A stretch of DNA of 64,000 nt from positions 1-64,000 of the forward strand of contig CACOEZ010000006.1 in assembly GCA_902626385.1 (NCBI GenBank), given 5' to 3'. This stretch comes from an uncultured SAR86 cluster bacterium (GTDB lineage Bacteria; Pseudomonadota; Gammaproteobacteria; Magnimaribacterales; D2472). Of the stretch, positions 34,093 through 38,597 are shown piece by piece (the stretch's first letter is position 1; each line of letters opens with the position of its first letter). Both the position numbers and the translations under genes were made by a program. The notes below the pieces were generated by a model. That model worked only from the letters and a program-made list of their open reading frames with translations, did no database searches and was not told the origin of the DNA.

Positions 34093-34380
34093 ATGAAAAA
34101 AGGTTATTGGGTAGTTAGAGCAAATATTTCTGATATTGATGAATACTCAAAATATATTGAATTAGCCTCTAAAGTTATTCAACAATATAAGGGTAAGTTT
34201 CTTGTTAGGGGAGGTTCTCAGATAGAATTTGAAAAAAATGGATTCGAAAGAACCGTTGTAGTTGAATTTGAAAGTCACCAACAAGCAATAAAATGTTATG
34301 AGTCAAATGGATATCAGTCTGCTTTAGATTATGTCAAGGATTCAGCTGTGAGATATGTTTCTGTAGTAGAGGGATATTAA
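34093..34380 (+). CDS. DUF1330 family protein
   Basis: A 95-residue cytosolic protein of the DUF1330 group (small dimeric alpha/beta-barrel fold). Typical pattern: GYWVVRANISDIDEYSKYIE at the start, GKFLVRGGSQIEFE in the middle, VVVEFESHQQAIKCYESNGY and the closing RYVSVVEGY. Function of the family is unestablished. It sits one base after glcB and its end overlaps the convergent dioxygenase-like gene, so it is likely co-transcribed with malate synthase. Confidence 0.92.
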   Translation: MKKGYWVVRANISDIDEYSKYIELASKVIQQYKGKFLVRGGSQIEFEKNGFERTVVVEFESHQQAIKCYESNGYQSALDYVKDSAVRYVSVVEGY

Positions 34381-35519
34381 ATTTTTTGATCCTGTGTTTC
34401 GTCTCTGTGTTTTTTGAGATATTTCATAAAAGGTGTACCGCCAGTTCCTCTCACTGTTGATCCTCCAGATCCGATATCACTAGTTACTTGTGCTTGTTTA
34501 TGAATGTAAGTTGCTGCATATTCAAGATGCTGAGCTCTAAATTTTCTAATTTCTTCAAGACATTGATTATAAATTTCTGTCAGACACTCAGATTTGTGAA
34601 TTATATCTTTTGCTTTAGATTTTTTTTCAACCTTTTCAATCATCCCTCTATGATGAGGTGGCATATAGTCTCTCATCTCATTTAAATAATGTCTTAAGTT
34701 ATCATTAGTATGATAAATTCCTAATGCTCCATCTAAAAATGGAATGATACTACTTTGAGCGCCAGTCTCACCTCTAAAAAATTGTGGCTCATTATTAAAC
34801 TGATTCTCATAAATTAACCCATTTTTTAAATCAGGATTATCTTTTGTTCCAAATATATATGGCCTAACTCTATGATAGTAAACATATGGATCACATTTCT
34901 CAGGCATTTTAGAAAAAATATTATTTACTTTTACAAGAGACTTTTTGATTCTTTTTAAATGTTTTGAAAATTCACTAATCGAATTTTCGCTGTCCAAGTG
35001 CGCCAATTTATAAGCGGCATCAATTGCATCACTTGCAGCATCTTCAATACAAACATGAATAGTTACAAACCAATCCTCATCAACACCTCCTAGAAAATTA
35101 TTTATTAGAGCTACATTATCAAGAGAGATAGGTTCAGAATTGTCAATTCTATACCAATTATCTAAACAATAACTCGCGTAGCTTAGAATCGGTGGTCTTC
35201 CTAGATATTGAGACAATTTTACCCATGGTTCTGATATAACTTCTGGAAGGATTGGTTCTGGTTTTTTACCTCCCCACATAAAGGCATGTGCAATAAAACT
35301 GATATGTGACATTGCTAGGTTGATCTCATGCAAACTATCCTTTTCTAGAATTTTATCAATAGAAAAATCTTTTTTATTTAATTTTAAAATTGTTTTTTGA
35401 ACTTTACTTGTTAAAAGTAGTTTAGGTAGATGTGAAGCAATGTTTGAAATATTTTCTAATGATGTTGATCTAGTTTTATAAGACGTTAGCGGGTCTATTT
35501 CTGGCAGAAAAGTGTGCAT
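34377..35519 (-). CDS. indoleamine 2,3-dioxygenase-like heme protein
   Basis: A 380-residue protein of the indoleamine-2,3-dioxygenase family. I use the ATG at 35519 (MHTFLPEIDPLTSY), because homologues begin with such an FLP-x-x-x-PL segment; a GTG at 35573 would add 18 hydrophobic residues. Signatures: YLGRPPILSYASYCLDNW, YYHRVRPYIFG, FFRGETGAQSSIIPFLDGAL, MRDYMPPHHRGMI, the probable proximal heme His in FRAQHLEYAATYI, and GTGGTPFMKYLKK at the end. Known members open the indole ring of tryptophan with O2. No kynureninase or formamidase gene is nearby, so the physiological substrate is uncertain. Confidence 0.87.
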   Translation of the reverse strand: MHTFLPEIDPLTSYKTRSTSLENISNIASHLPKLLLTSKVQKTILKLNKKDFSIDKILEKDSLHEINLAMSHISFIAHAFMWGGKKPEPILPEVISEPWVKLSQYLGRPPILSYASYCLDNWYRIDNSEPISLDNVALINNFLGGVDEDWFVTIHVCIEDAASDAIDAAYKLAHLDSENSISEFSKHLKRIKKSLVKVNNIFSKMPEKCDPYVYYHRVRPYIFGTKDNPDLKNGLIYENQFNNEPQFFRGETGAQSSIIPFLDGALGIYHTNDNLRHYLNEMRDYMPPHHRGMIEKVEKKSKAKDIIHKSECLTEIYNQCLEEIRKFRAQHLEYAATYIHKQAQVTSDIGSGGSTVRGTGGTPFMKYLKKHRDETQDQKI

Positions 35520-35618
35520 ATTATTTATATAATAAACACATAAAATTAATAAATACAGCACCTTTTTTAGCACTTAAAAAATTAACTAAAAAAAAGTATA
35601 TTTTTTTACAAAAAAGTG

Positions 35619-35646
35619 TTGACAAGTTATCTAATAGGAGTAATAT
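35619..35646 (+). promoter_or_regulatory. sigma-70 promoter of the ncRNA upstream of aceE
   Basis: A perfect TTGACA (35619-35624), a 16-base spacer and TAATAT (35641-35646). Transcription should start near 35653. Confidence 0.75.
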
Positions 35647-35652
35647 TAAATA

Positions 35653-35876
35653 TACCAACAGCAACCGACTAGTGACCAACTGCAGACGGGAGACCTAGAG
35701 AGAAGCTGAAGGAAGAGACCGAAGGGTGAAAGCATTTACAAGAGTCGGCGATAAAAAAGAGCTTGTAAATCCACCAAGAGTTCAAGAGAAAGGACTCAAG
35801 GAGCTAAAGAAAATCTCACTTTAGACCCCTAAGGAACTCGATTAAGAAAACAGAGTTTAACTCTGTTTTTTTTTGT
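35653..35876 (+). ncRNA. unassigned structured RNA upstream of aceE
   Basis: This stretch of about 225 bases has no plausible protein frame but has its own promoter, a terminator at its end and several strong helices: ATTTACAAG (35734-35742) with CTTGTAAAT (35762-35770), GAGTTC (35778-35783) with GGACTC (35792-35797), CTAAAG (35804-35809) with CTTTAG (35819-35824). CCGACT near the 5' end (35665-35670) is complementary to AGTCGG in the loop of the first hairpin (35743-35748), a possible pseudoknot. The strand is purine-rich with five GGA triplets. I see no match to tmRNA, RNase P RNA, SRP RNA or 6S RNA. It could be a free small RNA or a terminating leader of aceE. Confidence 0.7.
35847..35876 (+). 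terminator. intrinsic terminator of the ncRNA
   Basis: Stem AAAACAGAG / CTCTGTTTT with a five-base loop TTTAA and a run of nine T. It ends about 85 bases before the aceE start. Confidence 0.92.
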
Positions 35877-35960
35877 CTAAAAAAAACCAAAATATTCAAA
35901 TTTAATTTATAAAAATTACATCTAAAATACTGTAAACTTGTTTAATCATGGGAGTTCTAG

Positions 35961-38597
35961 TTGTCAAATAAAGATATTGATCCAATTGAAACTTCTGAAT
36001 GGCTTGAAGCAATAAATAGCGTCATAGAAGAAGAAGGTATTGATCGAGCTTCATTTTTATTGTCTAAGTTGGCAAAAAAATTAAATCAAGAGGGCGCAAT
36101 CCCTTCATATAATCTAACAACTCCATTTAAAAACTCTATACCTGTAAAAGAAGAAGCACCTATGCCAGGTGATCTCTTTATGGAAAGAAGGATAAGATCA
36201 TTAATTCGTTGGAATGCTCTTGTTATGGTTCTAAAAGCGAACATGAACGATGATGAATTGGGAGGACATATCTCAACGTTTTCATCTGCCGCAACATTAT
36301 ATGATGTTGGGTTTAATTATTTCTTTAGAGGCTCAAATGGCCAACTTGAAGATATGGTTTATTATCAAGGACATTGCTCACCGGGTATATATGCAAGGAG
36401 TTATCTAGAGGGATATTTGAATGAAGACGATTTGGATAATTTTAGAAAAGAAGTTCATAAACCAGGATTATCATCATATCCACACCCATGGCTAATGCCA
36501 GATTATTGGCAATTTCCTGTTGTTTCAATGGGATTAGGTCCAATACTTGGGATATATCAAGCTCATGTCATGAGATATTTATCTGCAAGAGGACTTGTGC
36601 CTAGAAATGATAGAAAAGTATGGGTTTTTTGTGGTGACGGTGAAATGGATGAGCCAGAATCTAAAGGAGCTATTGGTTTAGCAGGTCGAGAACAATTGGA
36701 AAATCTGATATTTGTTGTTAACTGTAATCTTCAAAGGCTTGACGGACCAGTAAGAGGCAATGGGAAAATTATTCAAGAATTAGAGGGTGCTTTCAGAGGT
36801 GAAGGTTGGAATGTTATCAAAGTTGTTTGGGGTAGATTTTGGGATCCAATAATGGCAAAAGATACAGAAGGCAAACTTCAAGATTTAATGGATGTAGTGG
36901 TTGATGGTGAATTGCAAAACTTCAAAGCAAAAGGAGGCGCTTATACAAGAGAGAATTTTTTTGCAAAAGATCCCGATGTTTTAGAGATGGTAAAAGATTT
37001 GTCCGATGATGATATTTATAAACTTAACAGAGGAGGACATGATCCATATAAAGTGTATGCTGCTTATCACAAAGCTGTAAATTCTGAGGGAGCTCCAACT
37101 GTAATACTGGCTCTAACAACAAAAGGTTACGGAACCGGTTCAAGAGAGGCAGATAATACAACACATCAAGTAAAAAAATTATCTATGGATAATATTAAAT
37201 CATTTAGAGATAAATTTAATATACCAGTTTTAGACTCAGAAATTGAAAAACTGCCATATGTAAGACCGTCAGAAGATTCACCAGAAATACAATATCTCAA
37301 AAAAACTAGAGAAGAGCTTGGTGGATATATTCCAAGAAGAAGAACTGCATCAGAGGCTTTACCAATGCCAGATACTAAAATATTTGAAAAATTATACGAA
37401 TCAAGTGGAGATAGAAAAATATCAACCACAATGGCCATTGTAAGAATAATTACTGATTTATTAAAAGATAGTGAGATAGGTGAAAGAATTGTTCCTATTG
37501 TCCCAGATGAGGCAAGAACTTTTGGTATGGAGGCATTATTTAGACAGGTTGGAATTTACTCCTCAGCTGGCCAAAAATATGAGCCAGAAGATGCTGATAA
37601 AGTTATGTGGTACAAAGAGTCAAAAGATGGTGTGATGCTTGAGGAAGGAATCACAGAAGCAGGTGCATTTAGTGCTTGGACTGCATTAGCTACAGCATAT
37701 TCGAATTATGACTTTCCAATGATTCCATTTTATCTTTTTTATTCAATGTTTGGATTTCAAAGAGTTCATGATTTATCGTGGGCTGCAGGTGACGCTCAAG
37801 CTAAAGGTTTTCTCATAGGTGCAACTTCTGGAAGAACAACTTTAAATGGTGAGGGTCTTCAGCATCAAGATGGACATAGTCACATTCTTTCATCAACAAT
37901 ACCTAATTGTTTGTCTTATGATCCCGCATTCGCATATGAAGTTGCTGTTATTGTCAAAAATGGCATAAAAGAAATGTTCGTTGATCAAAAAAATTATTTT
38001 TATTATATAACTACAATCAATGAAAATTACTCCCATCCGGAAATTCCAGATGGTTCTGAGTCAGGAATTATAAAAGGAATGTATAAATTAATTGATAATG
38101 AAAATGCTCAAATAAGGCTTCTAGGTTCGGGCGCTATTTTAAGGGAAGCAATAAAAGCAAAAGAATTATTGGAGAAGTTCAATATTAAAGCTGAGGTTTG
38201 GAGTGTTACAAGTTTTAATTTATTGAGAAAAGATGGAATGGAAGTAGAAAGATTTAACCAATTAAATCCTAGTAAAGAACCAAATCCATCATATGTTGAG
38301 CAATGTTTTTCTGATAGTGATATTCCAGTTATTGCTGCCACTGACTATATGCGTTCCTATTCTGAGCAAATTAGACCTTATATTAAGTCTACGTTTTTTA
38401 CCTTAGGAACAGATGGATATGGACGAAGTGATTCAAGGGAAACATTGAGAGATTTTTTTGAAGTTAATTCAAAGAGTATATCTAGGGCAGCTTCATACGC
38501 ATTATATAAAACGAAAGTTATTTCAGAGGATCAAATAGTTGATATATATAAAACTTTGAAAGTTGACACAACCAAGCCCAATCCTTGGGAAGTCTGA
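35961..38597 (+). CDS. aceE: pyruvate dehydrogenase E1 component (homodimeric type)
   Basis: E1 decarboxylates pyruvate with thiamine diphosphate and acetylates the lipoyl group of E2. The 878 residues match the homodimeric gammaproteobacterial form. The start is TTG at 35961 after a GGGAG site; the upstream ATG runs into a stop. Key segments: NALVMVLKANMNDDELGGHI, YYQGHCSPGIYARSYLEG, the ThDP motif WVFCGDGEMDEPES to NLIFVVNCNLQRLDGPVRGN, GATSGRTTLNGEGLQHQDGH and the C-terminal LGTDGYGRSDSRETLRDFFE. aceF overlaps its stop by one base. No lpd (E3) follows within the window. Confidence 0.97.
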   Translation: MSNKDIDPIETSEWLEAINSVIEEEGIDRASFLLSKLAKKLNQEGAIPSYNLTTPFKNSIPVKEEAPMPGDLFMERRIRSLIRWNALVMVLKANMNDDELGGHISTFSSAATLYDVGFNYFFRGSNGQLEDMVYYQGHCSPGIYARSYLEGYLNEDDLDNFRKEVHKPGLSSYPHPWLMPDYWQFPVVSMGLGPILGIYQAHVMRYLSARGLVPRNDRKVWVFCGDGEMDEPESKGAIGLAGREQLENLIFVVNCNLQRLDGPVRGNGKIIQELEGAFRGEGWNVIKVVWGRFWDPIMAKDTEGKLQDLMDVVVDGELQNFKAKGGAYTRENFFAKDPDVLEMVKDLSDDDIYKLNRGGHDPYKVYAAYHKAVNSEGAPTVILALTTKGYGTGSREADNTTHQVKKLSMDNIKSFRDKFNIPVLDSEIEKLPYVRPSEDSPEIQYLKKTREELGGYIPRRRTASEALPMPDTKIFEKLYESSGDRKISTTMAIVRIITDLLKDSEIGERIVPIVPDEARTFGMEALFRQVGIYSSAGQKYEPEDADKVMWYKESKDGVMLEEGITEAGAFSAWTALATAYSNYDFPMIPFYLFYSMFGFQRVHDLSWAAGDAQAKGFLIGATSGRTTLNGEGLQHQDGHSHILSSTIPNCLSYDPAFAYEVAVIVKNGIKEMFVDQKNYFYYITTINENYSHPEIPDGSESGIIKGMYKLIDNENAQIRLLGSGAILREAIKAKELLEKFNIKAEVWSVTSFNLLRKDGMEVERFNQLNPSKEPNPSYVEQCFSDSDIPVIAATDYMRSYSEQIRPYIKSTFFTLGTDGYGRSDSRETLRDFFEVNSKSISRAASYALYKTKVISEDQIVDIYKTLKVDTTKPNPWEV

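Follow-up and report, generated by a model that had tools for sequence, protein, structure and literature searches.

The locus between positions 35600 and 35880 of the window (the whole 64,000-nucleotide stretch of SAR86 cluster DNA analysed here) raises the question of which RNA is encoded upstream of aceE, whether it acts on that gene, and how it might work. The first-pass annotation had left the RNA unassigned and had proposed an Infernal search against Rfam as a check. That search (cmscan) returned a significant match to IMES-1 (RF02034) at window positions 35659-35850, which spans the full model (1-191) and scores 196.8 bits (E = 1.2e-44) against a curated gathering cut-off of 81 bits. 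The RNA upstream of aceE is therefore a copy of IMES-1, an already described RNA of marine bacteria, with which it shares sequence and structure across the full model, no difference being found in the window copy. IMES-1 is, according to the original reports, an abundant transcript in marine metatranscriptomes. Weak Rfam matches to AgrB and STnc410 over the terminator fell below the cut-off. We also rejected a divergent 6S RNA and a divergent RNase P RNA, as the genome contains the canonical form of both elsewhere (6S RNA at C5:52367, 54.4 bits; RNase P RNA at C3:118887, 314 bits).

Table 1. Features of the IMES-1 gene in the window (coordinates are those of the whole stretch).
Feature	Position	Strand	Basis
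Sigma-70-type promoter TTGACA (35619-35624), 16-base spacer, TAATAT (35641-35646), with A/T tracts upstream	35619-35646	+	Sequence; same arrangement at most homologues
IMES-1 RNA (RF02034), full model 1-191	35659-35850	+	cmscan
5' domain enclosing L1: P1 CAGC (35659-35662) / GCUG (35705-35708); P2 CUAG (35669-35672) / CUAG (35695-35698)	35659-35708	+	Rfam structure line, fold
L1 palindrome CUGCAG in loop AACUGCAGAC (35678-35687), candidate symmetric kissing loop	35680-35685	+	Lineage comparison
Closing helix AGG (35723-35725) / CCU (35828-35830), enclosing hairpins 2-4	35723-35830	+	Outer-pair covariation A-U/G-U/G-C
Hairpin 2: stem AUUUACAAG / CUUGUAAAU, loop L2	35734-35770	+	Compensated changes in 6/6 predicted pairs; Rfam structure
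L2 hexamer GUCGGC, candidate symmetric kissing loop (main evidence)	35744-35749	+	125/125 distinct sequences self-complementary
Hairpin 3, loop with GAGA (35786-35789)	35779-35796	+	Covarying stem
Hairpin 4 CUAAAG / CUUUAG, loop with UCUC (35814-35817)	35804-35824	+	Rfam structure, fold
Intrinsic terminator ACAGAGU-UUA-ACUCUGU and U-run	35850-35874	+	Sequence, fold; U-run at 52/52 loci

With its own promoter and terminator, the IMES-1 gene occupies positions 35619-35874 (Table 1). The perfect promoter motifs and 16-base spacer read from the sequence at the outset are indeed present, and TTGACA-16-TAATAT or TTGACA-16-TATTAT precedes 28 of the 52 homologous loci, while any match to TTGNNN-15/18-TANNNT precedes 49 of them. 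A simple scan overlooked the terminator, which is visible in the fold as a hairpin (35850-35866) followed by a U-run; it ends near 35874 and the aceE open reading frame starts at 35961, in agreement with the 85 bases given initially. Compared with dinucleotide shuffles, the RNA strand has the more stable predicted fold (z = -2.49; 1/200 shuffles equally good), and in an alignment of 29 sequences 12 of the 17 predicted pairs show compensated changes. The helices described by the first-pass annotation are thus real and conserved in relatives, as its proposed covariance check was meant to establish, but their number is five internal helices plus the terminator instead of three. Its view of a discrete, terminated and structured small RNA is supported.

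The strongest indication of how this RNA may work comes from loop L2. We scanned every six-column window of the alignment, family by family, and counted self-complementary hexamer types with G.U pairs allowed, in a sample of 149 IMES-1 copies (125 distinct). L2 ranked first in all four groups, with 8/8 types self-complementary in family f1, 4/4 in f2, 4/4 in f4 and 2/2 at the outgroup loci. Overall, self-complementarity is kept in every distinct sequence and in 12/12 hexamer types (GUCGAC, GCUAGC, GUCGAU, GUCGGC, GGUACC, GCAUGC, GUUAAC, GUAUAC, GUUGAC, GUGCAU, GUGCGC and GCCGGC), so that the loop palindrome covaries as a self-complementary element. The hexamer changed at least 26 times, an approximate number obtained on a tree built from the IMES-1 RNA itself without the L2 loop. 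When substitutions were placed at random on the same branches, a mean of 28% of the tips were self-complementary, and the outcome in which all tips were so occurred in 0/5000 runs. Five of the types (GUCGAU, GUCGGC, GUGCAU, GUGCGC and GUUGAC) require G.U pairs, which favours RNA-RNA pairing over a DNA site. Because adjacent bases of one loop are unable to pair within one chain, an argument that has been applied to the OLE and GOLLD RNAs (PMC12286853), the L2 signature points to pairing between two molecules. A search across the IMES-1 RNA found no consistent or conserved partner for L2 elsewhere in the molecule. We consider it likely, from this pattern of covariation, that IMES-1 self-associates through symmetric kissing loops formed by L2. 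Some hexamers pair weakly (GUUGAC, -2.6 kcal/mol; GUUAAC, -3.4 kcal/mol), and flanking contacts would thus be needed.

Loop L1 carries a palindrome in every lineage, namely CUGCAG in f1 and f4, CUCGAG in the IMES-1 copies of f2 and CUUAAG in the outgroup. Its closing pair is kept as C-G, U-A, G-C or U-G in 124 of the 125 sequences, and the closed loop has the layout AA-N6-A, with CA replacing AA in one f2 copy. As few independent changes have occurred in L1, we regard it as weaker evidence than L2, supporting and not decisive. The same layout is found in the dimerisation initiation site of HIV-1, where a six-base palindrome in an apical loop is preceded by two purines and followed by one A (PMC4066764, PMC7357161), corresponding to AA-CUGCAG-A in L1. 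The HIV-1 site is a packaging signal of a viral genome, however, and we do not claim homology. A parallel to L2 is offered by OLE and GOLLD, in which loop palindromes covary between chains (GGCC/GAUC/AGCU; GC/CG) and the contact has been seen by cryo-EM (PMC12286853). Covarying palindromes in symmetric kissing loops, predicted in the case of IMES-1, are what these RNAs have in common. OLE and GOLLD are much larger and have been solved by cryo-EM, whereas IMES-1 measures about 190 nt, has a variable hexamer and bears no sequence relation to them.

A different partner for L2 had been suggested earlier, namely a pseudoknot between a 5' segment (35665-35670) and the hairpin loop (35743-35748). The complementarity does exist in the window sequence, but it does not covary in relatives: the 5' CCGAC stays invariant while L2 becomes GUGCGC, GUUAAC, GCUAGC and others, and the two are complementary only in copies with GUCGGC or a close variant as L2. 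A conserved pseudoknot between the 5' segment and L2 was rejected on this ground. An intramolecular contact is plausible between hairpins 3 and 4, as the GAGA of the former is complementary to the UCUC of the latter in most sequences, and one compensated variant (GAAGA/UCUUC) was found.

The position of the gene next to aceE had led to the proposal of a terminating leader, possibly riboswitch-like, that controls pyruvate dehydrogenase in cis. In the window, as in three further genomes (G025, G028 and G032), the RNA is followed by aceE. The comparison of neighbours, in which window genes were named by Pfam and those of relatives were read from the sequences and not from a family search, does not bear out such a leader. 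In f1, one side is usually occupied by an indoleamine-dioxygenase-like gene or by a DUF1330 gene and malate synthase, and the other by a pyruvate-kinase-like gene, aceE or another gene; where enough flank is available, the next gene is mostly pyruvate-kinase-like, oxidoreductase-like or transporter-like. In f4, IMES-1 precedes a prephenate-dehydratase-like gene. Its f2 neighbours are a flavoprotein-like gene and a convergent gene that ends about 28 bases away. The cis position upstream of one gene is thus not conserved, every copy (52/52 loci) is closed by a U-run terminator, and two copies, in tandem or close together, occur in several genomes, so that we regard a leader acting on aceE as highly improbable. 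Since the neighbours change between families and several genomes have two copies, IMES-1 is an autonomous gene of which aceE is merely one neighbour. The window gene at 34377-35573 encodes an indoleamine 2,3-dioxygenase family protein (PF01231, E = 3.5e-86) and adjoins genes for malate synthase G and a DUF1330 protein; this block is kept beside IMES-1 in many f1 genomes. Second copies of IMES-1 (L036, L037, L039-L041) are separated by about 320 bases or by 4-5 kb, sometimes with neighbour genes duplicated too, and the L2 hexamer is nearly always identical between copies of the same genome (13 of the 15 genomes with distinct copies).

The remaining alternatives depend on protein partners or on other RNAs. 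The purine-rich unpaired segments contain several GGA triplets, which would suit an RNA of the CsrB/RsmY type that sequesters CsrA, as had also been suggested. CsrA, however, was absent from all of the 36 f1 and 8 f4 genomes searched (0/44), including single-contig ones with 93-95% completeness, as well as from the six genomes of the outgroup IMES-1 loci, and it was easily detected in the 16/16 f2 and f3 genomes searched. Conservation of IMES-1 in f1 and f4, where its supposed target is missing, makes this function extremely improbable in this lineage, barring a CsrA homologue that escapes recognition. The independent promoter and terminator and the C/U-rich loop of hairpin 4 (UCUC) could instead indicate an antisense RNA that pairs in trans with mRNAs through its loops. 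Hfq and ProQ were each found in 0/60 relatives, with the E. coli controls detected, so that neither protein is present for such an RNA to depend on; with CsrA also absent in f1 and f4, the usual protein partners of small RNAs are unavailable here. Moreover, conservation extends over the whole 190 nt and not over a short seed, and the GAGA loop of hairpin 3 accounts better for the UCUC. Antisense action is accordingly improbable in our view. A monomeric RNA whose palindromic loops are read by a dimeric protein or engage in another symmetric contact would account for the long conserved unpaired stretches, which suggest protein or tertiary contacts. L2 nevertheless varies among 12 hexamers, with self-complementarity alone kept and G.U tolerated, which argues against sequence-specific recognition by a protein, as this would conserve the letters; we judge such a monomer unlikely, if slightly less so than an antisense RNA. 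As a separate observation, the order, as sampled by these 60 genomes, appears to be a lineage without the standard small-RNA chaperones.

We thus favour self-association. IMES-1 is a stand-alone gene, transcribed from its own strong-looking promoter and ended by its own terminator, whose RNA folds into about five helices and has no cis role for aceE. It most likely works as a homo-oligomer, in which L2, and probably L1 too, pairs with the same loop of a second molecule via the self-complementary hexamer, so that either a dimer with two bridges or a chain would form. The pairing in the cell, the stoichiometry and the end use we infer from the comparison; a scaffold or a protein-binding platform is our guess for the last of these, as the long unpaired purine-rich stretches are also conserved. 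The covarying palindromes provide a concrete and easily tested statement on how the orphan RNA IMES-1 works. Natural RNA homo-oligomers supported by covariation are few and mostly very large, and a case of 190 nt would be a tractable model. The IMES-1 structure line in Rfam draws L1 and L2 as unpaired and contains no intermolecular pairing.

A weak IMES-1 match in a genome of family f3 turned out to be IMES-5 (RF02995). A covariance model built from IMES-1 only recovered 35 of 36 IMES-5 loci over their full length, with strand and location correct (E = 6e-9 to 0.005); its next matches, starting at 0.0096, were to other places or unrelated loci and were partial or misplaced. From this result we conclude that IMES-1 and IMES-5 are homologous, which merges two orphan families. 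Both share the AACUCGAGAC loop, AAGGGUGA, CCACC, GACCCCUU and CUUCG. IMES-5 differs in its length of about 150 nt, lacks hairpins 3 and 4 in the form found in IMES-1 and, read by eye, has a possible GGGU/AACCC loop pairing in place of the palindromic L2, while its first loop contains CUCGAG in 35/35 distinct sequences. We lean towards the view that IMES-1 and IMES-5 form one small-RNA superfamily of a marine gammaproteobacterial order without Hfq and ProQ, whose members may assemble into homo-oligomers or filaments via symmetric kissing loops, one in IMES-5 and two in IMES-1. On this view, a very abundant RNA of the ocean would be an RNA-only assembly of subunits of about 190 nt. No clan in Rfam joins the two families, and as far as we checked, Rfam records neither the self-pairing signature nor the link to IMES-5, both of which are apparently new.

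IMES-5 is confined to f3 and f2; f1 and f4 have only IMES-1, and f3 has only IMES-5. Most f2 genomes carry the two RNAs at a distance of about 14 kb, which suggests old paralogues with differential loss. Within the order of the window, an IMES-1 match was obtained in 128 of 203 genomes, a few of these being the weak f3 matches that are IMES-5; among the 75 genomes in which IMES-1 was not found are f3 genomes, with IMES-5 only, and many incomplete assemblies. When 369 genomes from across the class were searched, IMES-1 matches came only from members of the same order. A phage origin was considered and rejected, as the core pattern of IMES-1 had 12 matches among viral contigs and none of them was IMES-1. 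In named genomes the core pattern gave 83 matches, most of which look like chance; of the 12 that were scored, eight are IMES-1 (seven gammaproteobacterial, one titled Woeseia sp.). A divergent IMES-1 group (L082, L095, L106, L120, L141 and L145) scores 103-113 bits, has CUUAAG as L1 and comes from other named gammaproteobacterial records, including one with the title Woeseia sp.
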